From the NCBI RefSeq assembly GCF_900182555.1, contig NZ_FXTH01000003.1, forward strand, positions 248,001 to 312,000: a DNA stretch of 64,000 bases, given 5' to 3'. Position 1 is the stretch's first letter. Each line of letters begins with the position of its first letter. A program made the translations under genes and the position numbers. This document shows, piece by piece, positions 21,759 to 50,144 of the stretch. Source of the DNA: Fodinibius sediminis (GTDB lineage: Bacteria > Bacteroidota > Rhodothermia > Balneolales > Balneolaceae). Under the pieces are notes generated by a model. The model did not search any database, was not told where the DNA came from, and was given only the letters and a program-made list of their open reading frames with translations.

Positions 21759-21770
21759 AATCAAGGTATT

Positions 21771-23546
21771 ATGAGAAGTTTAAAACATATTGTAACATTT
21801 TCGGTGGTTGTGGTGCTGGTAGCTTCGTGCACGGATTTTCTTAATAAGAAACCGGTCACGGAGTTTACCCGGTCGGATATATGGAAAGATCCGGCACTGG
21901 CAGAATCCTATGTCAATCAAATCTATGACGAGGTGCCCTGGGGGGTAGCCAGAAATGCGGGTAATGTTGATGAATCAAGAAACCGTTCGGGAAATGGCTA
22001 TAATGTCAATAACGCCCTGATAACCCCTGACAACTCCGGCTTTGGAAACTGGGGGGGCAACTATTCCAGTATACGGAAAACCAACAAGTTCCTGGTTAAT
22101 ATCGATAAAATCGATTTTGGAAATGCCGAATCGGACGGGGTTTCTCTGAAAGATCGCATGACGGGCGAAGTCCATTTTTTGAGAGCTTATTTTTATTTCA
22201 ACCTGGCAAGTCATTTCGGAGGAGTGCCGATCATTACCAAGGTCTACGAGCTGAACGAGGAATACGAGGTGCCCCGCGACTCGTTTGCCGACGTGATAGA
22301 CTTTATTGTCGAAGACCTGGATAAAGCCGCCAACCTGCTGCCCCTGACCAATTCGGGCGGCAACAATGGCCGGGCGAGCAAGGGCGCTGCGCTGGCTCTG
22401 AAATCAAGAGTGCTGCTCTATGCGGCCAGTAATCTGTATAACCCCGCCCAAAACGGTGCCATCACCGGTAGCTATTCGAATCCTGAATTCCTGGGATATA
22501 CGGGGGGGGATGCCACGGCCCGGTGGCAGGCGGCTAAAGAAGCAGCCAAAGAAGTGATCGACCTGGGTATTTACAGTCTGTACCAGCCCGATCCGGCGTC
22601 GGACGAAGAGGCTACCCGGAATTACGGGGATCTCTTTACCTCGCAAAAAAGTGTGGAGGATATTTTCGTGCGCTACCGGTCCAACGCGCTAAACGAGGGA
22701 TACGACGGATGGGGGATCGCTCCCAACGGCTGGTATGGCAACGCCGGGGTGGGCGCTATCAGTGAACTGGTGGATGCCTACAGGATGGCGGACGGAAGTG
22801 AGTTTGACCGCAGCAATCCGGACCACGCCCGGGAGCCCTATGAAAACCGGGATCCGCGGTTGACGGCATCCATTTTGTATGAAGGCAATGCCTATCGGCC
22901 ACGGCCGGCCGACCTGGTAAAATATGATCCGGAAGGGGTCGGACAGTTCGGTACCTGGGAGCGCTGGGACAGTGAAAACAATGAGATGTACAGGGAATAC
23001 GGGCTGGACACCCGGAACAGTATTGCCAATCCCTGGAACGGCAACAGGACGGGAGCCACCATGCTGAAGTTTCTGGATAAATCGGTGGATATACAGCAGT
23101 CGAACCAGGATTTGACGTGGCGTTATATCCGGTACGGGGAGATTCTGCTGAACTATGCTGAAGCCTGCATTGAGCTTGGCGAGGAGGCAGAAGCCCGCAA
23201 GTATCTCAATATGTTGAGGCAGCGGGCCCACATGCCCGATATTACCGCTTCGGGCGAGGCGCTGATGGAGGAATACCGAAATGAACGGCGCATCGAACTG
23301 GTGTACGAAAATAAACGATTTTTCGATGTCCGCCGCTGGATGATCGGTCCACAGGCCTACCATGATGTGCACGGAGTCAATATTGTATATGAGCTGCAGG
23401 ACGATAACACGACCGCTGAGATCCCAACCATCACACCGATTAAAATCATGGACGGCAAGTGGGAGAACAAAATGTATTTCTTTCCCATCAACCGGGATGA
23501 AATGAACAGAAACAACAAGCTGGTACAGAACCCCGGCTATGAGTAG
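21771..23546 (+). CDS. SusD/RagB-type glycan-binding lipoprotein (SusD1)
   Basis: A 591-residue surface lipoprotein with lipobox V-A-S-C near residue 20 and the SusD opening D-F-L-N-K-K-P. A TPR-like helical core follows, including F-L-R-A-Y-F-Y-F-N-L near residue 135 and Y-G-E-I-L-L-N-Y-A-E-A near 460. The C-terminal N-E-R-R-I-E-L-V-Y-E-N-K-R-F-F-D segment and the end P-I-N-R-D-E ... Q-N-P-G-Y-E are family hallmarks and show the gene is complete. It caps SusC1 and binds the glycan at the cell surface. It is the only intact susD in this window. Confidence 0.96.
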   Translation: MRSLKHIVTFSVVVVLVASCTDFLNKKPVTEFTRSDIWKDPALAESYVNQIYDEVPWGVARNAGNVDESRNRSGNGYNVNNALITPDNSGFGNWGGNYSSIRKTNKFLVNIDKIDFGNAESDGVSLKDRMTGEVHFLRAYFYFNLASHFGGVPIITKVYELNEEYEVPRDSFADVIDFIVEDLDKAANLLPLTNSGGNNGRASKGAALALKSRVLLYAASNLYNPAQNGAITGSYSNPEFLGYTGGDATARWQAAKEAAKEVIDLGIYSLYQPDPASDEEATRNYGDLFTSQKSVEDIFVRYRSNALNEGYDGWGIAPNGWYGNAGVGAISELVDAYRMADGSEFDRSNPDHAREPYENRDPRLTASILYEGNAYRPRPADLVKYDPEGVGQFGTWERWDSENNEMYREYGLDTRNSIANPWNGNRTGATMLKFLDKSVDIQQSNQDLTWRYIRYGEILLNYAEACIELGEEAEARKYLNMLRQRAHMPDITASGEALMEEYRNERRIELVYENKRFFDVRRWMIGPQAYHDVHGVNIVYELQDDNTTAEIPTITPIKIMDGKWENKMYFFPINRDEMNRNNKLVQNPGYE

Positions 23547-23654: not shown

Positions 23655-23715
23655 TGGTTTATGTATTGAAGGGGCTGTGCTCTGGTCAACGGAAGAAAAA
23701 ATTACAGGAACGCTT

Positions 23716-24900
23716 ATGGATCAATTTTATCGTAAGGGCAGGATGCTATGCTTGTGGGTGCTCTTCGTATGCGCCGGCCCGGTCGGCGCCTATTCCTTTC
23801 AGACGCCCGGGGAGGTACCCCCTGTTCAATTTCGAAAAATGCAGGTTGCCTCTGAAAGCTTTGAGTCGGCCGGGGTTTTTGATGTGAACGATGACGGCCA
23901 CCTGGATATCGTCTCCGGGGCTTTCTGGTATGGCGGGCCCGATTTCAGGGATCGCCATTATATCCGGGATGTCGACAATGTTGGTGAGTACTGGGATGAA
24001 TTTGCCACGATTCCCATGGACGTCAACGGCGACGGGCATACCGACTATGTTACGGGGGGCTGGTTTGGCAAGAACATAAAGTGGCACCAGAACCCGGGCG
24101 AAGCCACCGAATGGAAGGAGCATATCATTGATGAAACGGGCAATGTGGAAACCATTCGGAGCTGGGATGTTGACGGCGATGGTTATCGGGAGATCGTCCC
24201 TAACAACCCGAATGATCCGCTGAAATTTTATACCTTGAACAGGGATGACGGCGGAGAGGCGGTTGGGACGTTCAAAAAGGTAGCCGTAGCAGACCGGCAG
24301 GATCACGGGCTTGGCTTTGGCGACATCAACGGGGATGGAAGGGGCGATTTTATCGTCAGCAACGGCTGGCTCGAGGCCCCGGTCGAGCCAGAAAGCGGGA
24401 AATGGATCCGGCACGAGGAGTTTTCCCTGGGGGATGCCAGCATTCCTATCCTGGTCGTGGATGTGAATGCGGACGGCAGGAACGATCTCATCGTGGGACA
24501 GGCCCACAGCTACGGACTTGACTGGTATGAGCAGGAAGTAAAAAAGACAGGAGAACGAGCATGGGTCAGGCATCCCATCGACCCCCATAATTCCCAGTTT
24601 CACACGATGGAGTGGGTCGATATCGACGGGGATGGACGCAATGAATTGGTGACCGGCAAGCGTTACCGGGCGCACAACGGCAATGATCCCGGGGGAGATG
24701 ATCCGGTGGGCCTCTATTACTACAAATGGAATGGGGAGGCCTTTGTGAAAAACACCATCTCCTACGGACCGCTGGGAGAAGGCAAGGGGGCGGGTATCTA
24801 TTTTGAGGTGGTGGATCTTGGAAAGGACGGATGGAAAGATATCGTCGTGGCCGGCAAGGACGGCCTGTATGTTTTTTTCAACGAAGGTAACCGTTATTAA
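23716..24900 (+). CDS. exported FG-GAP/VCBS-repeat propeller protein
   Basis: About 394 residues with a signal peptide (L-C-L-W-V-L-F-V-C-A ... V-G-A-Y) and repeated calcium-binding loops of the form D-x-N-x-D-G-x-x-D (for example D-V-N-D-D-G-H-L-D, D-V-N-G-D-G-H-T-D, D-V-D-G-D-G-Y-R-E, D-I-D-G-D-G-R-N-E). This predicts a seven-bladed FG-GAP propeller. I chose ATG 23716 over a GTG at 23677 because it sits directly before the signal peptide. W-H-Q-N-P-G resembles a motif of uncharacterised propellers common in Planctomycetota. It may bind or cleave the glycan handled by SusCD1, its upstream neighbour. No catalytic motif can be named. Confidence 0.8.
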   Translation: MDQFYRKGRMLCLWVLFVCAGPVGAYSFQTPGEVPPVQFRKMQVASESFESAGVFDVNDDGHLDIVSGAFWYGGPDFRDRHYIRDVDNVGEYWDEFATIPMDVNGDGHTDYVTGGWFGKNIKWHQNPGEATEWKEHIIDETGNVETIRSWDVDGDGYREIVPNNPNDPLKFYTLNRDDGGEAVGTFKKVAVADRQDHGLGFGDINGDGRGDFIVSNGWLEAPVEPESGKWIRHEEFSLGDASIPILVVDVNADGRNDLIVGQAHSYGLDWYEQEVKKTGERAWVRHPIDPHNSQFHTMEWVDIDGDGRNELVTGKRYRAHNGNDPGGDDPVGLYYYKWNGEAFVKNTISYGPLGEGKGAGIYFEVVDLGKDGWKDIVVAGKDGLYVFFNEGNRY

Positions 24901-24988: not shown

Positions 24989-26227
24989 ATGTACAAAGCG
25001 GTAATTGTTAGTTCTTTATTCATATTATTTGCTTCTTATATCAGTGGTTGTGCAACTGCGCAACAAGTTAAATCCGTGGAAGATTTCCCCGATTTTGAGC
25101 TTGAAAATGAAGATCGGGTGGTGCTGCTGGGGAATTCGCTTATCCAGTACGACCAACAGCATGGGTATATTGAATACGCCCTGACTACCCGTTGGCCCCA
25201 AAAAGATATCACCTTTCGCAATCTTGGATGGACGGGCGACACGGTACATGGGAAGGCTCGCACTTATTACACCACACCACCGGGCCCGTATGAATTGCTG
25301 ATCGACCAGCTAAAAGAGGTGGAGCCAACGGTGGTGTTTGTCGGGTATGGTGCCAATGAGGCGTATGAAGGAGAAGAAGGAATTCCCGATTTCCGGCAGG
25401 GATTAAACAAGTTGCTGGATGATATCGAAAAAATGGAAGCCCGGGCCGTCCTGCTGTCTCCCATCCCCCATATGTCCCAGATGCTCGCGGAAGAAGAACT
25501 TAACGCCCGCAATAAGAATTTGAAGCTTTATTCAGAGGTCATTGCCGAAGTGGCTTCTGCCCGCCATATTAGGTTCATCAACTTGTTTAAGCCTTTTCAA
25601 GGACTGGATAACAGCGATCAGTTTACAACCGACGGTGTCCATCTAAATGAGAATGGATACTATTATTTAGCGTCGGTGATGGAGGATGGACTGGGACTGC
25701 CCCCGCGCAAGTGGAGGGTGGAGATAGACCGTGCTAGAAAGGATGCGAAAGCTACAGGTATGGCCACAATTTTAGAGGCGCAGTTCGGGGATGAAGAAAT
25801 AAATTTTACACTGGGCAGCCAGCTTCTTCCCCTGCCACCTCCGGATTCTGATACGGTCATAGAAATTCAAACAAGAGATTTTACAATAAATGGGCTCGGC
25901 CGGGGATGCTATACCCTGTCCGAAGGCCCTGCTGATATAATATCAGCATCGGCCGAACGCTGGTCCGAGGGCGTAGAAATTGAGCGGGGCCTGCTATTCG
26001 AGCAGGCAAACGAACTTCAAGAGTTGATCGTAAATAAAAACCAGCTGTACTTCCGCAAGTACCGGCCAGTGAATCGGACGTACCTTGTTGGGTTTAGGTC
26101 ATTTGAACAGGGACAAAATACCAAGGAATTGGAGCAGCTAGATCTGTTTATCACCCGGATGGAAGATCAGGTATTCCAGCTTAGAAAACCTCAACCCAAA
26201 GTGTACCGGGTACACGCTGTTAAATAG
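24989..26227 (+). CDS. SGNH/GDSL-family hydrolase lipoprotein
   Basis: A 412-residue lipoprotein (lipobox I-S-G-C-A near residue 21). The SGNH blocks are intact: G-N-S-L with Ser50 as nucleophile, N-L-G-W-T-G-D as block II, V-G-Y-G-A-N-E-A-Y as block III, and D-G-V-H-L with Asp215 and His218. Such enzymes remove acyl groups, for example acetyl esters on polysaccharides. A C-terminal region of about 170 residues is not recognised. It is followed 83 bases later by haem propeller 2. The same two-domain combination appears fused in the protein at 34811-37993, so the two products probably work together in the envelope. Confidence 0.85.
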   Translation: MYKAVIVSSLFILFASYISGCATAQQVKSVEDFPDFELENEDRVVLLGNSLIQYDQQHGYIEYALTTRWPQKDITFRNLGWTGDTVHGKARTYYTTPPGPYELLIDQLKEVEPTVVFVGYGANEAYEGEEGIPDFRQGLNKLLDDIEKMEARAVLLSPIPHMSQMLAEEELNARNKNLKLYSEVIAEVASARHIRFINLFKPFQGLDNSDQFTTDGVHLNENGYYYLASVMEDGLGLPPRKWRVEIDRARKDAKATGMATILEAQFGDEEINFTLGSQLLPLPPPDSDTVIEIQTRDFTINGLGRGCYTLSEGPADIISASAERWSEGVEIERGLLFEQANELQELIVNKNQLYFRKYRPVNRTYLVGFRSFEQGQNTKELEQLDLFITRMEDQVFQLRKPQPKVYRVHAVK

Positions 26228-26310
26228 TAGCCACATCAACATTCGAGTTTGCATGAAATGATTGATACGAAGCAGAAACAGAAATCAATTCACCTGGGAT
26301 CGATAAGCAG

Positions 26311-29300
26311 ATGAACATTTACCCCCGATGGTTCAATTTGTTAGGCAGTAGTTTCTTTGGAATGCTGCTCCTTAATGTGGTTGTGTTGCTCCCAATGAGT
26401 TCTCAGGCACAGGATAATTTGCGAGATGTTCCGAATCCCGACCCGCAGTTTGAAAAGAAGACGCTGAATGTGGCGGAGGGATATGAAATAAAGCTGTTTG
26501 CCGAGGAACCGATGCTGGTGAAACCCATCCAGATGAACTGGGATGAAAAAGGACGGCTCTGGGTGGTCGGCAGTAAAAATTATCCCCAGCTGAAGCCGGG
26601 TGAGGTAGCTGATGATAAAATCTATGTGCTGGAAGATACCACGGGAGACGGCAGGGCAGATGTTTCTACAGTATTTGCTGAAGGGTTGGAGATCCCCACT
26701 GGAATATTACCGGGAGACGGAGGAGTCTATGTGGCGAACGCAACGGAAATTTTGCACCTCAAAGATACAAATGGTGATGGAAAAGCAGATCAAAGGCGCA
26801 GGGTGTTAAGTGGCTTTGGGACCGGCGATGCCCATCACCTCGTCCATACGTTTCGATGGGGACCGGCCGGAAGATTTTATTTCAACCAGTCAATTTACAT
26901 TCACAGCTATCTTGAGACGCCGTACGGGGTGAAAGAGCTCAAGGGCGGCGGTACGTGGCGATATCAGCCTGAAACGATGGAGCTGGGCATTTATATGCGG
27001 GGACTCATTAACCCGTGGGGACTTCAGTTTAACAAATGGGGACAATCATTTTTAACCGATGGAGCGGGCCGCGAAGGCATCAACTTTGCTTTTCCAGGGG
27101 CCACGTTTACCGCGGCACCGGGGGCAGAACGAATTTTGCATGGTCTGAACCCGGGGCAGCCTAAACATTCCGGGCTTGACATTATTTCGGGGCGGCACTT
27201 TCCTGACTCGTTAAGGGGGAGCTTGATCACCAATGATTTTCGCGCCAATCGCATTAACCGGTTTGTCCTGGAGGAACAAGGCAGCGGCTACGTATCAAAA
27301 CAACAGGAAGACTTGATATGGTCTGATAACGTCGCCTTCCGCCCGGTCGATATTTCGGTGGGCCCGGATGGAGCAATTTATGTGGCCGACTGGTACAATC
27401 CTATCATCCAGCATGGAGAAGTAGACTTTCGGGATCCGCGTCGGGATCACCAGCATGGACGCATTTGGCGAATCACGGCAAAGGATCGCCCGTTGGTTGA
27501 AAAACCTGATCTTAGCCGGGCAACGACCAGGGAGTTGTTGAAGGCACTGAAAAAGCCGGAAAAGTGGACCCGTTCCCAGGCAAAGCGAATGCTAAAGGAA
27601 CGCGGTACCGAAGAAATCGTGCCTGAACTAAAATCCTGGGTCAGTGATCTGGATCCCAATGATGCCGATTATGAGCATCAGTTGTTGGAAGCCCTGTGGG
27701 TTTTTCAATCTGTCGATGCAGTGAATGAGTTACTGCTCAAAAAAGTACTGAATGCCCAAAAACACCAGGCGCGGGCGGCAGCCGTGAGAGTGTTGAATTA
27801 CTGGTACGATGACGTTGATGATGCCTATCGTTTACTTCAGGATGCTGCAGCCGATGAAGACCCAAAAGTACGATTGGAGACTGTTATTGCATTCCGTAAT
27901 GAGCAATCGGCAGAAGCCGCAAAAACGGCACTCTCGGTGCTGGCATCTCCCATGGATGAATTCCTGGACTTTGCCCTTTGGCAGACCGTCCGTGAGCTGG
28001 AGCCGCACTGGATGGAAGCCATAGAGGATGAGCCGGAGTTTTTCGGTAATCCGAAGATGAAGGCGTATGCGCTTAAATCGGTGAATAATTCCCAGGCAGC
28101 CAAGCACCTGGTAGCGTTGTACCTGGAGGGGAAGGTACCTGAAGAATACAACCAGGATCTGTTTAATGCAGTCGCCAAGTGGGGGCGGGTGGAGGAGTTG
28201 AACATTTTCCTGGATTTAGCATTGAGTGATCGGGCGGTTCACGAGAATCGCCGCGCGTCCTACCTGAATACCCTGGAGGAAGCGGCCCGCCAGCAAGAGA
28301 AAAAGCCCACAAATAACCTGGATCGGATCATCCGTTTTGTGGATGATGATAACGAGCAGGTCGTACAAAGTGCCATAAAATTGATGGGCTATTGGAAGCT
28401 GGAGCAATTTCGGGACAGGCTGGATGATATAACCCATGGTGGTAACGATATGGCAAGAGAAGCGGCCATGGATGCCCTCGCTTTGCTGGGCGATGAGCAA
28501 AGCCGGCAAATGCTGGATGACCTGACCGGCAATGACCAGCCGGTTGAGCTACGCATAATGGCACTCAAACGCCTGATATCGCTGGATATCACCAAGGCGG
28601 CGCATATTGCTGTAACCCTGTTGCAGGAGACATTGGAACCGGAAATGGCGTCCCAGCTTTTTTCTGCCTTTTTTGCCCAGACAGAGGGGCCCGGGATACT
28701 CGCAGAAAAAATATCCGGGCAGGAATTCCCCAAAGAGACAGCCCAGGAAGGGGTAAAAGCCATTCAGCAGCAGGTACCCTACCACCGCAAGGATGATGAG
28801 GATGTAAAGAAGCTCCAGGAGGTATTTGAGCAATTGGGAGGCGAATTGCCGCCGGATCGCATGCCGCAGCAGTTAAGCAACCGACAAATGAACAGGCTGG
28901 AACTCGACATAAAAGCAAGTGCAGATCCCGCAAAAGGAGAAAAAATATTCAGGAAACTGGAATGTATGAGTTGCCATACCATTGGAGGCGCAGGAGGAAC
29001 AATAGGCCCTGGTGTAAGTAGTTTGGGGGCAAACGCTCCAACTGATTATATCATCCAGAGTCTTCTGAATCCAAGCGAGGATATTAAAGATGGATATGAG
29101 CTCAACCGCGTAGTCAGAAATGACGGCAGTGTCGTAACCGGCTACGTGGTGAATGAATCAAATTCTGAGGTCGTGATACAGGAAGTAGCCGGAAATAAAG
29201 TTTCAATTCCCCAAAGCCAGATAGACGTTCATGAGACGGTACCTGGCTCGTTAATGCCACCAGGCCTGACAGCCAGCCTGGAACGCAAGGAGTTTATCGA

Positions 29301-29808
29301 CTTGGTAGGATTCCTTTCTAAAATTGGGGAAGAGGGAGAGTTTCGCGTCCCCAACAGAAGGTATGTCCGCAGTTGGAAGGTACTGAGTGACAGTGCAAAA
29401 ACCGTCCAGAATATCAGTAACAATGGACTTGAGTCTGTCGTGAATGGGCAGGAGGAAATGAACTGGATGCCTGCCTATAGTAAAGTGGATGGGGGGCTCC
29501 TGCTGCAGGAATTGTCTTTTGTTGAATTGGAGAATGGAGAGAAATATAGCGTTATCTCTTTTGAACTTGAGGTACTGTCGGGGGGAAATGCAACGCTATC
29601 TTTCAATTCCACGGCCGATATCACGGCTTGGGCAGACCAAAAACCAATAGATGGCTCAGGGGATAAATATGAGGTTAACCTGTCCAGGGGGATTCATGAA
29701 TTCACGCTTGCTGTGAACCATAATAACCGTGAGGAGAACAGCATTCGCATAGAAGTTCAGGACGCCGATCAATCTCCCGCACAGATAAAACTCCTTATGG
29801 GTCGTTAA
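26311..29808 (+). CDS. haem-binding beta-propeller with HEAT repeats, cytochrome c and C-terminal beta domain (propeller 2)
   Basis: A 1165-residue exported protein with a signal peptide (ending S-Q-A-Q-D). The propeller begins V-A-E-G-Y-E-I-K-L-F and includes calcium-like D-T-N-G-D-G-K-A-D. A long HEAT-repeat region spans roughly residues 390-840. The cytochrome domain has C-M-S-C-H at 885-889 and L-M-P-P-G-L as probable haem ligand segment. After it comes an extra beta-rich domain of about 150 residues (1015-1165), absent from the other two propeller proteins. Family members are of the PVC haem-binding type. Paired with the SGNH gene upstream; I infer a surface or periplasmic redox enzyme for sugars. 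Confidence 0.85.
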   Translation: MNIYPRWFNLLGSSFFGMLLLNVVVLLPMSSQAQDNLRDVPNPDPQFEKKTLNVAEGYEIKLFAEEPMLVKPIQMNWDEKGRLWVVGSKNYPQLKPGEVADDKIYVLEDTTGDGRADVSTVFAEGLEIPTGILPGDGGVYVANATEILHLKDTNGDGKADQRRRVLSGFGTGDAHHLVHTFRWGPAGRFYFNQSIYIHSYLETPYGVKELKGGGTWRYQPETMELGIYMRGLINPWGLQFNKWGQSFLTDGAGREGINFAFPGATFTAAPGAERILHGLNPGQPKHSGLDIISGRHFPDSLRGSLITNDFRANRINRFVLEEQGSGYVSKQQEDLIWSDNVAFRPVDISVGPDGAIYVADWYNPIIQHGEVDFRDPRRDHQHGRIWRITAKDRPLVEKPDLSRATTRELLKALKKPEKWTRSQAKRMLKERGTEEIVPELKSWVSDLDPNDADYEHQLLEALWVFQSVDAVNELLLKKVLNAQKHQARAAAVRVLNYWYDDVDDAYRLLQDAAADEDPKVRLETVIAFRNEQSAEAAKTALSVLASPMDEFLDFALWQTVRELEPHWMEAIEDEPEFFGNPKMKAYALKSVNNSQAAKHLVALYLEGKVPEEYNQDLFNAVAKWGRVEELNIFLDLALSDRAVHENRRASYLNTLEEAARQQEKKPTNNLDRIIRFVDDDNEQVVQSAIKLMGYWKLEQFRDRLDDITHGGNDMAREAAMDALALLGDEQSRQMLDDLTGNDQPVELRIMALKRLISLDITKAAHIAVTLLQETLEPEMASQLFSAFFAQTEGPGILAEKISGQEFPKETAQEGVKAIQQQVPYHRKDDEDVKKLQEVFEQLGGELPPDRMPQQLSNRQMNRLELDIKASADPAKGEKIFRKLECMSCHTIGGAGGTIGPGVSSLGANAPTDYIIQSLLNPSEDIKDGYELNRVVRNDGSVVTGYVVNESNSEVVIQEVAGNKVSIPQSQIDVHETVPGSLMPPGLTASLERKEFIDLVGFLSKIGEEGEFRVPNRRYVRSWKVLSDSAKTVQNISNNGLESVVNGQEEMNWMPAYSKVDGGLLLQELSFVELENGEKYSVISFELEVLSGGNATLSFNSTADITAWADQKPIDGSGDKYEVNLSRGIHEFTLAVNHNNREENSIRIEVQDADQSPAQIKLLMGR

Positions 29809-29940
29809 ATGTAAGGATCAAATTTGAGGTGTATGCTTCACTGGACCCTACTATTTGTTTGTAGCATGGTTGCGGCTTATTTCTGTAGCTGAAGACCACC
29901 CCGACCCGCCACTTCAGAATAAAAAATTAATCCGTTCCCG

Positions 29941-29967
29941 AGTAGATTGTTCATGGTGATGTCTCTT
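29941..29967 (+). promoter_or_regulatory. bipartite element copy 4 (AGTAGAT-N12-TGTCTCTT) before SusC2
   Basis: AGTAGAT at 29941-29947 and TGTCTCTT at 29960-29967 have the standard gap. TATGCA follows at once. The SusC2 ATG lies 77 bases downstream, close to the 80 bases seen for SusC1. Confidence 0.65.
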
Positions 29968-30043
29968 TATGCATGCAGGGGATTGCGGCCTTTAACGGGC
30001 CCCGAAATAAGTAAGCCAAATATTAACAACAGGGATAAGGGTT

Positions 30044-33000
30044 ATGGAAAGAAAAGGTTATGGTGGGTTAAAAATAGTTGCGGCGATGATAATGTTTTTC
30101 GCGCTGCAGTTTGGAATCAATTGCTCATCCGGGTTTGCCCAGGAAGTCAGCGGCACGGTAGTGGATGCCGAGTCGGGCGAAACGCTGCCGGGCGTGAATG
30201 TTACCGTCAAAGGGACGACGGTTGGGGTGGCAACCGACGGGCAGGGCACCTATTCACTGACGGTGCCTTCACTGAACGATACGTTACTGTTTTCCTTCGT
30301 TGGATATGAAATAGCAGAAATCCCCATCAACGGCCGCACCACCGTTGATGTCAGCCTGGAAAGCGAAGCCATCATGGGCGAGGATGTGGTGGTTGTGGGC
30401 TACGGCACCCAGCAGAAATCTGACCTGACCGGCTCGGTGGGGACGGTGGATGAACAATCGCTCCAGGAGCGGTCGTCTACGAATGTCTCACAGGCACTGG
30501 CCGGAAAAATTTCGGGGGTCGATGTTTCGCTGAGCTCCGGTGAGCCGGGGGGCTCGCCACAGATCAGGATACGGGGAAGCAGCTCGGTGAGTAATACCAA
30601 TGATCCGCTCTATGTGGTTGACGGCGTGATTCTGAATGTTGAACGCATGCAGCAGGGGACCCATGCCATCAATTCCATCCCTCCCAGCAGTATCGAATCG
30701 ATTGAAGTGCTCAAGGATGCCTCTGCCACAGCCATCTACGGGGCCAGGGGAGCAAACGGCGTTGTCCTGATCACAACCAAAAAGGGCAGCCGGGAGGGGC
30801 CCCGCGTCAACTACAGCGGTTCTGTGAGCACCAGCAGTGTAGCCAAAAAGATTGATGTGCTCAATGCCGAAGAATTTCTGAGAGTTGAAGAAATTGCCTA
30901 TTCCAATGCGGAAAAATATGATCCGGCGGGATTTGCGGCGGGCAAATATACCAACCCGGTGGAGAAGAGAACGGATCCCCGGCTCTTTGATCAGAACGGG
31001 AATCCCATTTACGATACAGACTGGCAGGATGAGGCTTTCCGGCAGGCGATAACCCAGAAGCACAACTTGTCTGTTGCCGGGGGCGACAAGCAGACCACCT
31101 ATGGCGTCTATGTGTCGTACAACGATGAAGAGGGTGTGATGAAAGACTCCTGGCTGGAACGCTACTCCGGCAAGTTCAATATTGAAACCCAGGTCACAGA
31201 ATGGCTGAGCGCCGGTGGAAGCATGACCTACAGTAACCAGTCCCAGAAGGAGCTCCATCCCTGGTCCATGCGAATGCTCTATGAATCGATTGCCATCGTA
31301 CCGGTCAAGTACCCGGATGGAACATGGGCCGGCAACGAGGATTATCCGGGGATGGAAGGAGGGCCCAACCAGCGAAGGGTATCGGAGGAGAGCATCCATA
31401 TACTGGATACTCAAAATATCCTGGCCAACCTCCATACGACCATACAGTTTTCCGAGAAGCTGGAGCTGCGGACGATGCTTGGTACGAATGTGATTAACCA
31501 GGAGCAGGACCGGTATTCAGGACGCACGCTCCCTTTCCTGTCGCGCGACCAGGATGGTGTTGCCAGCATTTCACCTTCGCGCAGCGACAACTGGCAGTTT
31601 GAGAACTTGCTCAACTATACCGATGAGCTGAATGAGGTTCATTCCATTTCTGCTCTGCTGGGGCAATCCATCCAGACGTCCAGCCGGTCAAGTTCCAGCG
31701 CCTCTGCCTGGGGCTTTCTGGACGACTATTTTGAATACAATAACCTGGGCATTGCAGACAACCCGCGCCCGCCGAACTCAACGTCGAGCAAGTATACCAT
31801 GTCCTCCTATTTCAGTCGGTTAAACTATACCTATGATGACAAATACCTGGTAACCGTAACGGGTCGGGTTGACGGCTCATCCCGCTTCGGTACGAACAAC
31901 AGGTACGCCTTTTTCCCTTCGGCGGCCCTCGGATGGCGGGTATCCGAAGAGGGGTTCCTGCAGGACAACGCCACCATATCAAACCTGAAACTGCGCGCAA
32001 GCTATGGATTGACGGGCAATTCCGAAATAGCCAATTACCAGTATGAGGCGGGTCTGGGTACCTATACGGCCATCTTCAACGGGACCAGAAATGTCGGTGT
32101 GGGTGTGCAGCGGTTGGCTAACCCGGATTTGAAATGGGAGATCAACAAGCAGTTCGATATCGGTCTTGAACTGGGACTCTTCAATAACAGGGTGGCCCTG
32201 GAAGCGGATGTCTACAGAAGGAAATCTGAGGATATGTTGCTGCAGCGTCCCCTTCCGAGAACAAGCGGCTATGCCACGGTCTTCGAGAACATCGGGAGTA
32301 TGGAAAACCGGGGCATAGAACTGGCCTTAACGACCAACAACATTCGGAAATCCGATTTCTCATGGACCACGGAATTCAATATTTCGATCAATGAGAATGA
32401 AGTGTTGAAATTACATGGAGGCTCTGATATCGAAACCGGCGGTGGCGTCCACGGAGGCGGAGCAGGCAGTATCATCCGGGAAGGATTACCCGTAAATACG
32501 TTCATGGGGTATGTTTCCCTGGGTACCTGGAATACGGATGAAGCGGAAGAGGCGGCCCGGTACAACCGGCTTCCGGGCGACATCAAGTACAAGGATGTCA
32601 ATAACGACGGGGCCATCAATCAGGATGACCGGGTCCCCATCGGGAATGGTGTGCCGGATGGCTACGGCAGCTTTATCAACAGTTTCACCTACAGGAACTT
32701 CGAGGCTACTGCGGATATTCAGTTTATGTATGGTAACGATGTCATGTGGGAGGCCGTGCACTCCACCGAAGACCGGGTGGGGATAGCTAACAGCCTGGGG
32801 TCGGTGCTGAACGCCTGGACTCCCGAGAACCAGGACACCCCCATTGCCCAGCTGCGTCCCACACAGGCCGGTTATGATACGGACAATGATACCCACCGCA
32901 TGCAGGATGGATCTTTTATCAGGGGGCGAAATTTCACCCTTTCCTACAATCTTCCGCAATCCACGATCCAGCCCTGGGGTGCCCGAAATATCAGGGTATA

Positions 33001-33154
33001 CGCTGCGGCGCAGAATTTATTTGTTATTACGGAATTCAGGGGCTACGACCCTGAAGTGTCAACGTCAGGATCCCCTTTCTCTCGTGGACGGGCTCAATAT
33101 TTTGAGTATCCCAAGTCGAGGACCTTTGTATTGGGATTGGATATCGGCTTCTAA
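30044..33154 (+). CDS. SusC/RagA-type TonB-dependent outer-membrane transporter (SusC2)
   Basis: A 1036-residue outer-membrane transporter with signal peptide, carboxypeptidase-regulatory-like domain, plug (G-E-D-V-V-V-V-G-Y-G-T-Q, L-Y-V-V-D-G-V, L-K-D-A-S-A-T-A-I-Y-G-A-R-G) and barrel ending L-D-I-G-F. The N-terminal domain is almost the same as in SusC1 from E-V-S-G-T-V-V-D-A-E-S-G to F-S-F-V-G-Y, while the barrel is clearly different, so the two should take different glycan fragments. SusD2 follows after 42 bases but carries an in-frame stop, so this transporter may lack a full lid. Control is likely through the element at 29941-29967. Confidence 0.96.
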   Translation: MERKGYGGLKIVAAMIMFFALQFGINCSSGFAQEVSGTVVDAESGETLPGVNVTVKGTTVGVATDGQGTYSLTVPSLNDTLLFSFVGYEIAEIPINGRTTVDVSLESEAIMGEDVVVVGYGTQQKSDLTGSVGTVDEQSLQERSSTNVSQALAGKISGVDVSLSSGEPGGSPQIRIRGSSSVSNTNDPLYVVDGVILNVERMQQGTHAINSIPPSSIESIEVLKDASATAIYGARGANGVVLITTKKGSREGPRVNYSGSVSTSSVAKKIDVLNAEEFLRVEEIAYSNAEKYDPAGFAAGKYTNPVEKRTDPRLFDQNGNPIYDTDWQDEAFRQAITQKHNLSVAGGDKQTTYGVYVSYNDEEGVMKDSWLERYSGKFNIETQVTEWLSAGGSMTYSNQSQKELHPWSMRMLYESIAIVPVKYPDGTWAGNEDYPGMEGGPNQRRVSEESIHILDTQNILANLHTTIQFSEKLELRTMLGTNVINQEQDRYSGRTLPFLSRDQDGVASISPSRSDNWQFENLLNYTDELNEVHSISALLGQSIQTSSRSSSSASAWGFLDDYFEYNNLGIADNPRPPNSTSSKYTMSSYFSRLNYTYDDKYLVTVTGRVDGSSRFGTNNRYAFFPSAALGWRVSEEGFLQDNATISNLKLRASYGLTGNSEIANYQYEAGLGTYTAIFNGTRNVGVGVQRLANPDLKWEINKQFDIGLELGLFNNRVALEADVYRRKSEDMLLQRPLPRTSGYATVFENIGSMENRGIELALTTNNIRKSDFSWTTEFNISINENEVLKLHGGSDIETGGGVHGGGAGSIIREGLPVNTFMGYVSLGTWNTDEAEEAARYNRLPGDIKYKDVNNDGAINQDDRVPIGNGVPDGYGSFINSFTYRNFEATADIQFMYGNDVMWEAVHSTEDRVGIANSLGSVLNAWTPENQDTPIAQLRPTQAGYDTDNDTHRMQDGSFIRGRNFTLSYNLPQSTIQPWGARNIRVYAAAQNLFVITEFRGYDPEVSTSGSPFSRGRAQYFEYPKSRTFVLGLDIGF

Positions 33155-33196
33155 GACTTCCGCAACCTATTAATATTAATATTTGGCACCATACCT

Positions 33197-34702
33197 ATGA
33201 GACATTTCATTCACTACCTGTTACTTGGGGCATTTATCGTAAGTACGGCAGCCGGATGCGACGGTTTCCTCTCGCAGTCGGACCCCACCAGTTTTACGGA
33301 CCAGAACTATTACACCAAGCCGGCCCACGCCGAAGCAGTCGTAAATGCCATATATGAAGACCTGAGAGCAGTCAGGGGCGGCGGTTTTGGAGGCGCAGCC
33401 TGGCTGATGACCGAATTCCAGACCGGGCTTGCCAATACCGAGCTGGGACAGGCGACCAACAGCCTGGATATCCGGGCACTCGACAACAGTGCCGACAACG
33501 GCTATGGACAGGCCTACTGGAACAGCCACTATCGCGGCATTGCCAATGCCAACGAAGCTCTTGCCAACATCCCGGACATACCGCAGATAGCAGAAGAACG
33601 GAAGAACAGCCTGCTTGGAGAGGCCCGGTTTTTACGGGCGTATTATTATTTCAACCTTGTCCGCCTGTTTGGCGACGTGCCGTTGATACTGGAGCCCGTG
33701 GGACTGAATTCTGAGCAGCTGAAACCGGAGCGAGCGCCGGTGGCGGAGGTATACGAAGCCATCGTCAGCGACTTGACCTGGGTGGAGCAGAATGCACCGC
33801 TGCCGTTCAACAGCCAGAGCGGCCGGGCAACGCTGGGAGCCGTGAAGACGCTCTTGTCAAGTGTCTATCTGACCATGGCGGGCCACCCGCTGCAGGGGGG
33901 CGAGGAATACTACCAGCTTGCAAGAGATAAGGCAGAAGAGGTTATCAATTCCGGGGAATACCGGCTGTTCGATGATTATGCCGATCTGCACAGCTATGAT
34001 ACCGAGAATTCGGGCGAACATATCTTTATGGTGCAATATGATGCCGAGATTGTTGACCATAACGGCCTGCAGTATGTCACGCTTCCCTATAACCAGGATA
34101 TTTCCCTTTTTTCTGCGGAGACCGGAGGCATATTCGCCCAGGAGGAATTTGTAAATTCCTATGAGTCCGGTGACAAACGGACAGAGGAGAAACAGTTCTA
34201 CTATCATGAATTTACCAAGGTTTCCGATCGCAGCACGCCGGTGAACCTGGGGGGATGGTACCTGTACAAGTTTTTTGATCACGAGGCCAATACGGAAACG
34301 GCAGTTTCTGGTCTCAATTGGCCGCTGTTCCGCTACGCCGAAGTCCTGCTTATTTATGCCGAGGCGGAAAATGAAGTTAACGGGCCCACGGCTTCAGCTT
34401 ACGAGGCCGTCAATAAGATCCGGAGGAGAGCGGAGATTGATGAATTGTCGGGCCTTTCCCAGGCCGATTTCAGGGAGGCCGTCTGGGAAGAGAAGTGGCA
34501 TGAACTCAGTTTTTAAAATAAAACCTGGTTCGACATGGTTCGCCTTCGCAAGGCCTATGACGTGACAACGGGCGACTTTGAGGATTACGTGGGGCACACC
34601 TTTGTCTATGGTCCCACCCTCTCGGAAAGGGAACTGCTGTATCCCATACCGGCAGCTGAGCGCAGGAATAACGAGAACCTCACCCAGAACCCGGGTTATT
34701 AA
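33197..34702 (+). pseudogene. SusD/RagB-type lipoprotein interrupted by an in-frame TAA (SusD2)
   Basis: A SusD-type protein starts at 33197 with lipobox A-A-G-C and D-G-F-L-S-Q-S-D-P. It reads normally to H-E-L-S-F, where TAA at 34514-34516 stops it after 439 residues. The same frame then continues without a shift: N-K-T-W-F-D-M-V-R-L-R-K-A-Y, then L-L-Y-P-I-P and T-Q-N-P-G-Y, to a natural TAA at 34700-34702. The expected codon at the stop is GAA, because the family has F-E-N-K-x-W at this place (SusD1 Y-E-N-K-R; the 13252 remnant F-E-N-H-R). A single G-to-T change explains it. The truncated product lacks the last about 60 residues. It could also be a sequencing error, or be read through. 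Confidence 0.88.
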
Positions 34703-34810
34703 GCACAAAGGATTTTAGGAAAAAAAGAAAATTATAAAGTACTTATGAGACGGGTTCCCTTGTCTTGCGGCAAGGTCCACACTTATTAGCAGGCTCTTAT
34801 TACTTAATAC

Positions 34811-37800
34811 ATGGATTATATGAAATGTTCTTTTGCACGAACGGTAAACGCGTTAATTGGATCCTTGTTTGTGCTTGCACTGCTGGCAGGCTGTTCGGGA
34901 TCTGAAAAACCAAAACTTAGCGTTGAGAAAGGGTCCCATATCGTCCTGATTGGGAATAATCTGGGGTCCCGGATGATGGATTTTGGCCATTTTGAAACGG
35001 AGATGCACCTTCGCTACCCCGACAGCCTCCTGTACATTCGAAATATGGCGGATCCGGGGAATACACCAGGCTTCCGGCCCCACGCGGCCCGCAACTCTCC
35101 CTGGGCTTTTCCGGGTGCAGCCAAATTTCAGGATGAGCTGGCGGCCGAGCCGAGCAGCGTGGGACATTATCCCACGCCGGATGCCTGGCTCACCGAGCTA
35201 AAGGCGGATATCATCATCGCCTTCTTTGGGTACAGCGAATCTTTCGAAGGACAGGAAGGACTTGAGACGTACAAGTCTGAATTGGAGGCTTTCATCGATC
35301 ATACCAGGAAACAGGAGTACAACGGGCAGAATCCGGCGAAGCTTGTTATCGTTTCCCCTATTGCGTTTGAGAACCTGTCCGACAGTCTCGACCTGCCGGA
35401 GGGTGAAGAAATAAATAAAAATCTTTCGCTTTATACGGATGGGATGAAGGAAATTGCTGAAAAGAAAAACGTGCCCTTCGTAAATGTCTATACCCCGACC
35501 AAAGAGTGGCTGGAAAACAGTGATGAAGCGTTGACGATCGATGGCTCGCAGCTCAATGAGAAGGGCTATAAGCAATTTGCCAGGCTGCTGGCCGATAACA
35601 TATTCGGGGATAAAGAGCCGGAGGCTGAAGAGCATCGCAAGCAGGTGCACAATGCCGTGCTCGAAAAAAACTGGATGTGGGAAAATGATTATAAGATTCC
35701 CAATGGCGTTCATGCCTATGGACGAAGATACAAGCCGTATGGTCCTGACAATTATCCCTACGAGATTGCCAAGATACGGGAAATGACGGCTGTTCGCGAC
35801 ACAGCCATCTGGAAGGCGCTTGACGGTGAGAAGATGGACCTTGAGGCAGCGGATGCCAGAACTAAAGAATTGCCGGAAGTTAAAACGAATTATCGGGCCG
35901 ATGCCTATGGTCACGGAAATCCGGAATATCTGTATGGCGAGGAGGCTCTGGAAAAGTTCGATATGGCTCCCGGCTATGAAATATCGCTCTTTGCTTCCGA
36001 AAAACAATTCAATACGCTTGCCAATCCCGTACAAATATCCTTTGATAATGAAGGTCGCCTGTGGGTGGCCGTAATGCCCAGTTACCCCCACTATAAGCCG
36101 GGCAGTGACAAGCCCAATGATAAAATTCTCATATATGAGGATACGGATGCTGACGGCCGGGCCGATAAGCAGATCGTATTTGCGGACAGTCTGCATCTGC
36201 CTGTGGGTTTTGAGCTGGCGACCGAGGGAGTGTATGTCTCGCAGGGGTCTGATATGGTGCTGCTCAAGGATACTGATGGGGATGATAAAGCCGACCAGAG
36301 AAAAGTGGTGCTCAGTGGCTTTGATGATCACGATACGCATCATGCCCACAGTGCCTATACCGCCGATCCCTCAGGGGCGATCTACATGGGGGAAGGGGTG
36401 TTCCTGCATACGAATGTTGAAACATCCTACGGAACCGTTCGGGCAACGAATGGAGGATTTTACCGGTATAACCCTAGCCGAAAACGACTCGAGCGGACAG
36501 CCCAGATCTCGATTCCCAATCCCTGGGGCATTGCTTTTGACCGGTGGGGGCAAAACTTTTTTGCGGAAACCTCCAGCCCGAATGTCCGCTGGATGATGCC
36601 GTCTACCATCCAGTCGCGATACGGCGAAGCCTCACCCATGACGGAAAACCTGATCGAGGACGAACATATGGTGCGTCCCACATCGGGACTTGAATTTGTA
36701 TCAAGCCGGCACTTCCCGGAGGAGGTGCAGGGTGATTTGCTCATCAACAATACCATCGGTTTTTTGGGAACCAAGCAGCATAAGGTGATAGACGATGGCA
36801 CCGGGTACACCACCGAGCATCGGCAGGATCTGGTGCAGTCGTCGGACCCCAATTTCCGGCCGGTTGATTCTGAATTTGCCCCGGATGGCTCCCTCTATCT
36901 GGTTGACTGGCACAACAAGCTGATCGGACACATGCAGCATAATGCCCGGGATCCGCTTCGTGATCACTCGCACGGAAGGATTTATCGTGTAACCTATCCC
37001 GAGCGGCCGTTGGTGGAGCCCGCAGAGATAGCCGGAGCCGGTATCGACCAGCTGCTGGATAATCTGAAATTGCCCGAATACCGTAGCCGATACCGGACCC
37101 GGCGAGAGCTCAGAGGCCGTGACGCCAACGAGGTGCTCAATCATATTGAAACGTGGACACAGAATTTGGATGATAATGATCCGCAGTACGAGCATCATCT
37201 TCTTGAAGCATTATGGGTCTCCTGGGGGCTCAACAAGGTGGATGAATCGTTGCTTCGCCAGCTGTTAAAGGCCGAGGACCATCGGGTGCGCGCGGCCGCG
37301 GTTCGGGTTCTCCGCTACATGGGACATCAGGTTGCCGATCAGCAAAAATTGCTGGTTGATGCCGCACGGGATGAACACGGGCGGGTTCGGCTGGAAGCTA
37401 TTGTCGCGGCATCCTGGCTGAGTGAAGAGGAGGGCATGCCCGTTTTGAATGAAGCCAAAAAACATTCCCTGGACAAGTGGATGGAGGAACCGTTCAAAGC
37501 GGCGGTAGCCCGCGTCCAGGGCAAGGCCTACCGGACGGAAGAAGAGGAAGAGGAAAATAAGATAGAAACTGATCTTGAAGGGGAGGCAAGGGAGCTTTTC
37601 ATCAAGGGTAAAGCTATCTATGAACAGGATGGTTTTTGCGGAACCTGCCACCAGCCTGACGGCAAGGGAGCTTCTGGTTTTCCGCCCCTCGAAGGATCCC
37701 AATGGGTGACAGGGCAGGAAGAGCTTCTTACAAAAATTGTGTTAAAGGGTCTGCAGGGGCCGATTGAGGTTGGCGGGGAAAAGTATCCCGGCCAGGTTCC

Positions 37801-37993
37801 CATGACCGCTTTTGGAGGGATGTTAAACGATGAAGAAGTGGCGGCCGTGCTGACGTATGTCCGCAACGCTTTTGGTAATGACGCCTCCCCTGTAACACCG
37901 GATAAAGTCAAGAAGATACGGGCTGCGGTTCAGGACAAGGAAGGCTTGTATACCCCCGCGGAGTTGCTTGAGGAACATCCTTTTGAGGATTAG
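34811..37993 (+). CDS. degenerate SGNH domain fused to haem-binding propeller, HEAT repeats and cytochrome c (propeller 3)
   Basis: A 1060-residue lipoprotein (lipobox L-A-G-C near residue 28). Residues 40-265 form an SGNH-like domain, but the nucleophile position reads G-N-N-L (Asn50) and the block V His is Gln (Asp244-G-S-Gln247), so esterase activity is probably lost. A linker leads to the propeller (M-A-P-G-Y-E-I-S-L-F, about 390-740) with D-T-D-G-D-D-K-A-D. HEAT-like helices follow (R-V-R-A-A-A-V-R-V-L), then a cytochrome c with C-G-T-C-H at 943-947 and V-P-M-T-A-F as probable Met ligand. The cytochrome differs in type from that of propellers 1 and 2. It lies 109 bases after SusD2. Envelope redox role inferred. 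Confidence 0.87.
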   Translation: MDYMKCSFARTVNALIGSLFVLALLAGCSGSEKPKLSVEKGSHIVLIGNNLGSRMMDFGHFETEMHLRYPDSLLYIRNMADPGNTPGFRPHAARNSPWAFPGAAKFQDELAAEPSSVGHYPTPDAWLTELKADIIIAFFGYSESFEGQEGLETYKSELEAFIDHTRKQEYNGQNPAKLVIVSPIAFENLSDSLDLPEGEEINKNLSLYTDGMKEIAEKKNVPFVNVYTPTKEWLENSDEALTIDGSQLNEKGYKQFARLLADNIFGDKEPEAEEHRKQVHNAVLEKNWMWENDYKIPNGVHAYGRRYKPYGPDNYPYEIAKIREMTAVRDTAIWKALDGEKMDLEAADARTKELPEVKTNYRADAYGHGNPEYLYGEEALEKFDMAPGYEISLFASEKQFNTLANPVQISFDNEGRLWVAVMPSYPHYKPGSDKPNDKILIYEDTDADGRADKQIVFADSLHLPVGFELATEGVYVSQGSDMVLLKDTDGDDKADQRKVVLSGFDDHDTHHAHSAYTADPSGAIYMGEGVFLHTNVETSYGTVRATNGGFYRYNPSRKRLERTAQISIPNPWGIAFDRWGQNFFAETSSPNVRWMMPSTIQSRYGEASPMTENLIEDEHMVRPTSGLEFVSSRHFPEEVQGDLLINNTIGFLGTKQHKVIDDGTGYTTEHRQDLVQSSDPNFRPVDSEFAPDGSLYLVDWHNKLIGHMQHNARDPLRDHSHGRIYRVTYPERPLVEPAEIAGAGIDQLLDNLKLPEYRSRYRTRRELRGRDANEVLNHIETWTQNLDDNDPQYEHHLLEALWVSWGLNKVDESLLRQLLKAEDHRVRAAAVRVLRYMGHQVADQQKLLVDAARDEHGRVRLEAIVAASWLSEEEGMPVLNEAKKHSLDKWMEEPFKAAVARVQGKAYRTEEEEEENKIETDLEGEARELFIKGKAIYEQDGFCGTCHQPDGKGASGFPPLEGSQWVTGQEELLTKIVLKGLQGPIEVGGEKYPGQVPMTAFGGMLNDEEVAAVLTYVRNAFGNDASPVTPDKVKKIRAAVQDKEGLYTPAELLEEHPFED

Positions 37994-38042: not shown

Positions 38043-39479
38043 GTGCTGAGATACCTGCCCACACCAATGATTGTGCTGGCGTGTTTTGCCTTTTCGGCAT
38101 TCCCATTTGACGCAGGGGCAAAGTCACAGCCCCCCAACATTGTATTTATTTTTGCCGACGACCTTGGTTACCACGACGTAGGCATCTATGGTAACCATGA
38201 AGTTCGAACGCCCAATATCGATGCCCTTGCCAGGGAGGGCGTGATGTTTAGCCGGGCCTACAATATGGGGTCCTGGAGTCCGGCTGTTTGCATGCCCAGT
38301 CGTACCATGTTGAACACGGGACGCTATGTGTGGAAGGCCAAAGAGGCCTATGACGAAGGGTATGCAGAGATACAGGAGGAAGGCAATTTCTGGAGCCAGC
38401 AGCTCAGGCAGGCGGGGTATGAAACCTATTTCACCGGGAAGTGGCACGTTCCCGGACTGGATCCCAATAAATTGTTTGACCATGTGGTTCATGTCCGCCC
38501 GGGCATGCCGAAGCAGACCGAGGCCGGTTACGACCGTCCCAGGAAAGAAAAAAAAGATGAATGGAGTCCATATGATCCTGAATTCGGTGGTTTCTGGGAA
38601 GGAGGCACGCACTGGTCGGAAGTGCTCGCGCAGGATGCTGAGATGTTCATCGAGCATGCTCGTGAAAAGCAGAACCCGTTTTTTATGTACCTGGCATTCA
38701 ATGCAGCCCATGATCCGCGGCAGTCACCGAAAGCGTTTGTAGAATCCTATGACCCGGATGAGCTGGCCCTTCCGCAAAATTTTCTTCCCGAGTATCCCTA
38801 CAACGAAGCGATGGGTTCCGGCCGGAAACTGCGTGATGAGCGTCTTGCGCCTTTCCCCCGGACCGAGTATGCCGTCCGGGTACATCGACAGGAATATTAT
38901 GCGATTATATCACATATGGATGAACAGATCGGAAGGATCCTGGATCAGCTGAAGTCCGAAGGCAGGTATAATAACACCATTTTTGTTTTTACAGCTGATC
39001 ATGGCCTGGCTGTTGGACAGCACGGGCTAATGGGAAAGCAGAATATGTACGAGCATTCGTTGCGGGTTCCCCTTATCATAGCGGGACCGGGGATTCCGGA
39101 GGGTGAGAAGAGGACGACGCCCGTCTACCTGCAGGATGCAGTACCGACCACGATAGACTTTGCCGGCGGCCGGGTACCGGATTCGTATCAGTTTAGGTCT
39201 TTAGTTCCCCTGATTCGCGGAAAAGAAATACAGCTGCACCCCGCCATCTACGGAGCCTATATGGACAAGCAGCGTGCAGTCATCGAATGGCCGTATAAAT
39301 TGATTCTGTATCCCGAAATTTCCAAAATACGGTTGTATAATCTGGAGGAGGATCCCCTTGAAACCAACGATCTGGCCGGGCATGAGGATATGAAATCCAC
39401 CGTTCGGCGGCTCATCTATTGTCTTGAGGAGCTTCAGAAAAAAACGGGAGATGATTTAAATCTGAGCAGCTGGTCATAA
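38043..39479 (+). CDS. secreted sulfatase (S1 family), canonical C-M-P-S-R
   Basis: A 478-residue sulfatase with a signal peptide (M-I-V-L-A-C-F-A-F ... A-G-A-K). The GTG at 38043 is the chosen start; ATG at 38067 would also leave a usable signal. It has F-A-D-D-L-G-Y-H-D metal ligands, active-site Cys83 in C-M-P-S-R-T-M-L-N-T-G, G-K-W-H-V-P-G near residue 135, and T-A-D-H-G-L-A-V-G-Q-H near 318. The formylglycine motif is standard. It starts 49 bases after propeller 3 and precedes the ThuA-like gene. The substrate is presumably the sulfated glycan of this region. Confidence 0.93.
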   Translation: MLRYLPTPMIVLACFAFSAFPFDAGAKSQPPNIVFIFADDLGYHDVGIYGNHEVRTPNIDALAREGVMFSRAYNMGSWSPAVCMPSRTMLNTGRYVWKAKEAYDEGYAEIQEEGNFWSQQLRQAGYETYFTGKWHVPGLDPNKLFDHVVHVRPGMPKQTEAGYDRPRKEKKDEWSPYDPEFGGFWEGGTHWSEVLAQDAEMFIEHAREKQNPFFMYLAFNAAHDPRQSPKAFVESYDPDELALPQNFLPEYPYNEAMGSGRKLRDERLAPFPRTEYAVRVHRQEYYAIISHMDEQIGRILDQLKSEGRYNNTIFVFTADHGLAVGQHGLMGKQNMYEHSLRVPLIIAGPGIPEGEKRTTPVYLQDAVPTTIDFAGGRVPDSYQFRSLVPLIRGKEIQLHPAIYGAYMDKQRAVIEWPYKLILYPEISKIRLYNLEEDPLETNDLAGHEDMKSTVRRLIYCLEELQKKTGDDLNLSSWS

Positions 39480-39618
39480 GATCTTGAATAAAACCTAATA
39501 ATAGGCTATATCAAAGCATGCACCTGCTTTGCCTAGAAACGACAACAGGGGCTCATTGCCCAGAGAGACTAATGTGCGGTTCACAGGAAATGCTAATACA
39601 GAATAACAGATTACATCT

Positions 39619-40659: not shown

Positions 40660-40728
40660 GTGATTATGACAGTGGGTAGGAATTGTTGGCAAGTTTAAGA
40701 TATCCTTAATCAAAAATAACAGAATACA

Positions 40729-42498: not shown

Positions 42499-42859
42499 TT
42501 AGGGCTGCCGGGTCCTGTTTAAATGTTAAAAGGGAAGTCGGTGAATGGTGATCACAGCCCATGAAAATTTCCCTGTTTCATATCATAAGCCTGCCGGGAT
42601 TACTTATTTCACTTGAAAGTTCGGGGCAGCCGATCACAAACGATAAGGGCGATGAACAGGTACAGCATGGCAGTCGATGGTATCAATTGCAATTTCTCAT
42701 CCCAGCTTTCACATGGAGAAATATGCGGAGGCGGGCAACTCTTTAGGTTCTATTTCCACGACCTTCAAACCCGCTCCGCCCCAGATAGTCAAGCCGGATT
42801 TCAGCCTGGAATAGAATTTCAAGGATGCAAATATTTTAATTTTGAACAGAGGATCAGGG
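42499..42859. other. intergenic region between rhaM and GH106
   Basis: About 360 bases without a complete gene. It contains a short open stretch (42656-42814) that reads like a protein C-terminus, listed separately. No regulatory element of the AGTAGAT type is seen. Confidence 0.5.
42656..42814 (+). pseudogene. possible C-terminal remnant of an unidentified protein
   Basis: After stops upstream in the same frame, 52 codons read M-E-K-Y-A-E-A-G-N-S-L-G-S, then P-A-P-P-Q-I-V-K-P-D-F-S-L-E and a TAG. It looks like a natural protein tail and lacks a start, signal or body. I do not recognise the parent family. It may be chance. Confidence 0.3.
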
Positions 42860-47650: not shown

Positions 47651-47746
47651 TGGGCAGGAGAGCCGCAACTACAGGCGTGACGGATTTTTTGGATGTTATA
47701 ACAACAAAAGAACTTAAAAATAAAGGCAAATACAGATCATACTGAT

Positions 47747-49945: not shown

Positions 49946-49970
49946 CAGTGGCCTTTAATCATATCGGAAC

Positions 49971-50144
49971 ATGAAAACACTGCTTGTACTCCTGTCGATA
50001 GCTGGATTGGCACTGACGGTAATACCGTCGGTGCTGGTCTTCAGCCAGGGGCTGTCTCTTGAAACCCATAAGCTGTTGATGCTCGCAGGCATGCTTATGT
50101 GGTTTATTACGGCTCCCTTCTGGATGAAGGAACAGGAGCTGTAG
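49971..50144 (+). CDS. 57-residue two-helix membrane protein of the rhamnose operon
   Basis: A small gene encoding 57 residues with two hydrophobic segments (M-K-T-L-L-V-L-L-S-I-A-G-L-A-L-T and L-M-L-A-G-M-L-M-W-F-I-T) separated by a polar turn (S-L-E-T-H-K), ending W-M-K-E-Q-E-L. It starts 25 bases after the aldolase stop and ends 55 bases before the isomerase, in frame with operon organisation. The predicted inner-membrane hairpin resembles small proteins I recall next to sugar operons of Bacteroidota. It might assist the NCS1 transporter. The function is unknown. Confidence 0.7.
   Translation: MKTLLVLLSIAGLALTVIPSVLVFSQGLSLETHKLLMLAGMLMWFITAPFWMKEQEL

Follow-up and report, generated by a model that had tools for sequence, protein, structure and literature searches.

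Within a window of 64,000 nucleotides from Fodinibius sediminis, which is the whole stretch of DNA analyzed here, an SGNH-fold module and a haem-bearing propeller module occur twice: as a pair of adjacent genes and, further downstream, in a single polypeptide (Table 1). The original prediction read the pair as a lipoprotein SGNH hydrolase followed by a propeller-cytochrome protein, and the open reading frames, their order, strand, and domains agree with that description. The two genes are separated by 83 bp. The lipobox of the SGNH protein (ISGC) ends at residue 21, and in alignment the protein keeps the residues of all four SGNH blocks and the Asp (S50, G83, N123, D215, and H218); it has the residues of an SGNH hydrolase and is a putative enzyme. 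Both propeller proteins of the window score above the curated TIGR02604 cutoff of 122.2 bits (273.7 and 224.8 bits).

Table 1. Coordinates in the window of the split unit, the fusion, their domains, and adjoining genes
Feature	Position	Strand	Remarks
SusC/SusD pair upstream of split unit	18642..23546	+	
FG-GAP repeat protein adjoining split unit	23677..24900	+	
Split SGNH protein (class S)	24989..26227	+	Lipoprotein, 412 aa; PF13472 E 5.9e-16
Split propeller protein (class S)	26311..29808	+	1165 aa; DUF7133/TIGR02604 propeller, HEAT repeats, TIGR02603 haem domain (one CxxCH)
TIGR02603 haem-binding domain of split propeller	28921..29322	+	Residues 871-1004
SusC/SusD pair between split unit and fusion	30044..34516	+	
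Fused protein (class A)	34811..37993	+	1060 aa lipoprotein, invariant Cys28; pseudo-SGNH, propeller, HEAT, cytochrome c
SGNH-like domain of fusion	34931..35620	+	About residues 41-270; N50 for catalytic Ser, S142 for Asn, Q247 for His; Asp244 kept
DUF7133/TIGR02604 six-bladed propeller of fusion	35939..36997	+	Residues 377-729; best fold matches of the model are AA12 and soluble PQQ sugar dehydrogenases
C-terminal cytochrome c domain of fusion	37604..37867	+	Residues 932-1019, CGTCH at 943-947; Cytochrom_C
Sulfatase, ThuA-like, and xylose-isomerase-like TIM-barrel genes downstream of fusion	38043..41580	+	

PF13472 scores the SGNH domain of the fusion at 26.9 bits (E 8.3e-6), under its cutoff of 32.9; blastp aligns the domain with the split SGNH protein at 97 bits (E 1e-26), and a low-confidence model of it matches SGNH structures in Foldseek. 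By fold and sequence similarity the domain belongs with the SGNH proteins, although it lacks the catalytic Ser and His. The fusion had been described as the same two modules in one chain. This holds in that the modules are homologous and form one polypeptide, but they are old paralogs, with only 40% identity to the split pair in the propeller and 27% in the SGNH part. The haem domains differ in family: TIGR02603 in the split pair versus a ccoP/nitrite-reductase-like cytochrome in the fusion.

Both units had also been described as SusCD-linked, and a SusC/SusD pair does lie upstream of each; elsewhere, SusC was detected near only 10 of 44 class A entries and four of 10 class S units (classes defined below). 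The window has the gene content of a SusCD-linked glycan utilization locus, with two SusCD pairs, four sulfatases, GH106, and rhamnose catabolism, together with Gfo/Idh/MocA, ThuA-like, and TIM-barrel proteins and a 3-keto-disaccharide hydrolase (PF06439). From this content we infer a sulfated, rhamnose-containing glycan locus. The order SusC-SusD-sulfatase-FG-GAP-SGNH-propeller is found again in L102, and the order SusC-SusD-class A fusion-ThuA-TIM is conserved in Fodinibius (L086, L087) and in L179. ThuA-like genes are near nine of 11 B, all four C, and 16 of 44 A units.

Further genes of the window are worth recording. At 42842-55260, a GH106 rhamnosidase, a rhamnose isomerase-like protein, an FGGY kinase, a fused aldolase/dehydrogenase, and Lut-type genes form a rhamnose catabolism cluster adjoining the glycan locus. 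At 7428-11832, a PSCyt1/PSCyt2(DUF1549)/PSD1(DUF1553) protein, whose N terminus is a membrane domain (DUF2231), is followed by a DUF1501 gene; the two genes are likewise found after the S unit in L102 and after an A unit in L116. The region 68-7144 holds Gfo/Idh/MocA, DUF4432, and 3-keto-disaccharide hydrolase genes and then a cytochrome c protein (at 4505; 879 aa), which has no named N-terminal domain.

We surveyed a sample of 395 genomes from one phylum, with the fused SGNH domain and either propeller as queries, E limits of 1e-15 and 1e-60, and propeller scoring on the two best candidates per genome. The SGNH search and the propeller search match the identical 42 genomes. Class A comprises fusions of ~1050 aa, found in 29 sample genomes and, outside the sample, in named Flavobacteriaceae and others. 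Class B comprises fusions of ~950-1000 aa (11 genomes), class R fusions of 1354-1361 aa (two genomes, L105 and L106), class S split pairs like that of the window (10 genomes), and class C split pairs with an A-like propeller (four genomes). Viral contigs that we searched gave no match, and no description of an SGNH-linked propeller architecture turned up in the literature searched.

The split genes do not have random neighbors: 13 of the 14 pairs are adjacent (nine of 10 in S, four of four in C), in a common order and on a common strand, with gaps of 1-103 bp or an overlap of 92. Where the partner shares the contig, the propeller gene lies directly 3′ of every split SGNH gene (nine S and four C). 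The exception is genome G254 (L160), in which the S SGNH and S propeller genes are on separate contigs and a different gene follows the SGNH gene. In this draft genome the SGNH gene (11133-12767) adjoins an A fusion, and an acyltransferase-like reading frame comes next. Some other units are incomplete or disrupted: the G293 unit is interrupted by contig ends; an S unit on a Runella rosea plasmid (L190, 8004-11249) has an intact SGNH gene and a propeller gene that reaches the record end; and the A fusion of Maribacter halichondriae (L101, 6995-10158) is split into two overlapping frames by a frameshift or a sequencing error.

The proposal that fused and split forms exclude each other, offered as a check on the original prediction, is refuted, since, of the 12 genomes that contain S or R, eight contain A as well, against 0.9 expected (hypergeometric P = 1.3e-7, relatedness ignored). 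In the window and in G254, classes A and S share one neighborhood; they do so in G162 too, at a distance of 26 kb.

A tree of the propellers and a tree of the SGNH domains recover identical five clades, with S and R set against A, B, and C. Rooted against an outgroup of eight other TIGR02604-type propellers, the SGNH-linked propellers form one clade (support 100/99), and the reading frames of the six outgroup propellers from the window's own genome contain no SGNH match. The fused/split state changes at least twice on either tree. The association of SGNH and propeller thus most simply has a single origin, with two or more later losses or gains of the boundary between the genes. The window's fusion falls in one deep half of the tree and its split pair in the other; from their sequences the two are old paralogs rather than alternative forms. 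The split pair has its true fused counterpart in class R, and A and B have their true split counterpart in class C. The suggestion that the window's fusion arose from its neighboring pair is therefore rejected by both trees, in keeping with the low identities. The broader argument, that fusion of neighbors means joint action, fares better: a single clade, conserved adjacency, and at least two changes between fused and split states make it a strong inference that the two modules act together. These boundary changes are the useful form of the Rosetta-stone argument here.

What the SGNH partner contributes can be judged from its former active site. In an alignment with the split SGNH protein of the window, the catalytic Ser is replaced by Asn in all 43 distinct A proteins and the His by Gln in 42 and by Ser in one; every one of them retains the Asp. 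Recognizable GDS/GNS and DGxH motifs, by comparison, occur in five of six further SGNH proteins from the window's genome, which served as a control. Across 16 diverse fusions, there is little or no variation at Asn50, Asp244, and Gln247 or in the GNNL.SRM and FFGY segments beside them; such constancy of the altered sites and the residues around them points to a new use, not to decay. Ser53, within the GNNL.SRM motif, was considered as an alternative nucleophile and set aside, its His partner being lost too. Judged by these residues, deacylation by the fusion is very unlikely. The SGNH partner of the widespread fused form more probably holds substrate than removes acyl groups, because the residues that cut esters are lost.

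A purely structural role instead of docking, in which the SGNH domain has no ligand and serves to anchor or fold the propeller, is possible, if rather improbable. Loss of catalysis has been tolerated repeatedly, and a lipobox-like signal starts most A and B fusions and R, whereas ordinary signal peptides are found in most split SGNH proteins and all split S propellers. However, because most split SGNH proteins lack a lipobox, anchoring is not the general role of the module, and in class A the former active-site positions are not drifting.

The electron carriers vary. A CxxCH haem domain forms the C terminus in all 44 class A entries, in nine of nine S proteins, and in both R proteins. In B and C its place is taken by an azurin-like cupredoxin domain (C-x4-H-x3-M; motif CTFPGH...M), present in all four C proteins and in nine of 10 B proteins with a complete C terminus (13 of 14 overall), with PF00127 E-values of 1.5e-7 to 7.6e-10 in the four proteins scanned. 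Their sequences predict the type-1 copper ligands of azurin and plastocyanin in these C termini. Haem, which the original prediction named as part of the propeller, is therefore not the conserved partner of the SGNH module. One B fusion (L108, 7041-10016) has a haem domain where its relatives carry azurin, a carrier swap inside one subfamily. Since an exchange of cytochrome c for blue copper keeps one-electron transfer only, it is the best evidence that the propeller would be an oxidoreductase.

The fold of the propeller is compatible with this. Sequence searches of the propeller against the PDB gave no meaningful match, and the full-length AlphaFold2 model of the fusion (pLDDT 60) left the propeller unresolved; a model of residues 372-738 reached pTM 0.81 and a mean pLDDT of 73. 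This model matches the AA12 quinohemoprotein pyranose dehydrogenase CcPDH (6jt5) with Z 23.9 over 292 residues at 3.3 Å (VIA), Trichoderma AA12 with Z 23.6-23.8, and soluble PQQ glucose dehydrogenase (sGDH) with Z 21.6, and the fold matches down to rank 15 are also PQQ-type sugar dehydrogenases. The propeller thus appears in the model to have the six-bladed AA12/sGDH fold, at 15-17% identity, although a shared fold shows no function. CcPDH likewise joins a redox propeller to a one-electron carrier domain (PMC6881789); it differs in having no HEAT or SGNH module and in using cytochrome b (AA8) as its carrier in place of haem c or copper.

The AA12 enzymes and sGDH flank their quinone with a His and an Arg/Asx pair (PMC6881789, PMC6881810). 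By motif reading, the family appears to have the His (DTHH) and the Asn (NPWG), but the Arg of the dyad is not evident: its position would hold Pro in the fusion (IPNPWG) and Ile in the split protein (LINPWG). No PqqE scored above cutoff in 12 genomes with the unit, although PQQ import is possible. PQQ is a candidate cofactor only.

These points also bear on the alternative that the propeller is a glycan-binding or hydrolytic domain whose carrier serves some other purpose, with no substrate oxidized. Lectins, lactonases, and sialidases are among the Foldseek matches of the propeller, and neither the PQQ Arg nor, in the 12 genomes, a PQQ synthesis gene above cutoff is evident. The closest assayed relative counts against oxidation as well: Lac161_ORF7 (AGW45552), a Verrucomicrobial protein that shares TIGR02604, HEAT repeats, and cytochrome c with the unit and for which no SGNH module is described, is reported as a beta-galactosidase that hydrolyzes lactose (PMC5342196). 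We nevertheless consider a non-oxidizing propeller unlikely, given that a one-electron carrier ends every complete member, that haem and copper interchange, and that the top fold matches are sugar dehydrogenases.

The original prediction went further and coupled deacylation to redox chemistry at the cell surface. The exchange of haem for azurin favors the redox half; the deacylation half fits poorly with the loss of Ser and His throughout class A and of part of the site in most split SGNH proteins. Class C has Ala for Ser in all four proteins, both R proteins keep the Ser and lose the Asn, and the S proteins have Ser in four and Gly in six of 10; the window copy is the only one among them with Ser, Asn, Asp, and His together. 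SGNH/GDSL hydrolases (PF13472), such as BT4096 (7br2), have the fold and block order in common with the module and resemble the window's split copy in its full site, unlike the A-type domain. Esterase activity may persist in some members, because the Ser, Asn, and His are all retained in seven of 11 B fusions (all 11 of which have Asn and His) and in the window's split SGNH protein; deacylation by the latter is possible. Acylated glycans are common in such loci. As an account of the unit, a working deacylase coupled to the propeller is nonetheless quite unlikely. That adjacency and fusion came about by chance and independently in a glycan locus rich in genes is scarcely credible and, unless sampling was grossly biased, is refuted by the survey: the separate contigs of G254 speak for it, against the constant order and strand of the other pairs, congruent trees, and two fused/split changes.

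Among known proteins, the unit is close to the PVC-type heme-binding CxxCH proteins (TIGR02604/DUF7133, PF23500, with TIGR02603), which have the propeller, HEAT repeats, and C-terminal haem domain of the window proteins. It differs from them in the SGNH module, which is specific to one clade (five further TIGR02604 proteins above cutoff in the window's genome lack it), and in the azurin that replaces haem in B and C.

Given the module linkage, the loss of catalytic residues, the carrier swap, and the fold similarity observed here, we favor, with a probability of roughly 0.55, a surface sugar or glycan oxidoreductase with an SGNH-derived, mostly non-catalytic docking module. The window's pair and fusion would then be two old paralogous versions of one exported unit. 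The SGNH-fold module at the front would dock a glycan, possibly acylated or sulfated; in fused A proteins the former active site would be an invariant pocket lined by Asn and Gln, and the SGNH part would bear the lipid anchor. At the cell surface, the propeller would oxidize a sugar or glycan, and the electrons would be taken up by the haem c or, in other members, azurin-like copper domain of the protein itself. Neighboring enzymes of the rhamnose-glycan locus (sulfatases, the 3-keto-disaccharide hydrolase, the TIM-barrel isomerase/eliminase-like protein, and Gfo/Idh/MocA enzymes) would receive the products, and lyases, hydrolases, and reductases would complete the breakdown. Cleavage of C3-oxidized glycosides by sugar-isomerase-like eliminases is established in other systems (PMC10628242). 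The reported action of Lac161_ORF7 on lactose (PMC5342196) is also a point in favor of this reading.

A bolder form of this reading, which we offer tentatively and hold to be on balance doubtful, is a new class of surface glycan oxidoreductase: a PQQ-dehydrogenase-like propeller with another cofactor or another PQQ site, interchangeable haem and blue-copper carriers, and a retired SGNH esterase serving as the carbohydrate-binding pocket for substrate selection. We know of no activity for any SGNH-linked member.

TIGR02604 proteins are numerous (seven score above cutoff in the window's genome) and almost without assigned function. One clade among them has stayed with a single SGNH partner even as the genes fused and split, catalysis was lost, and the carrier changed. 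To annotate these SGNH-linked propeller proteins as esterases, or simply as haem proteins, is misleading. The invariant former active site is a candidate binding pocket that can be tested, and the carrier swap argues for an oxidoreductase.
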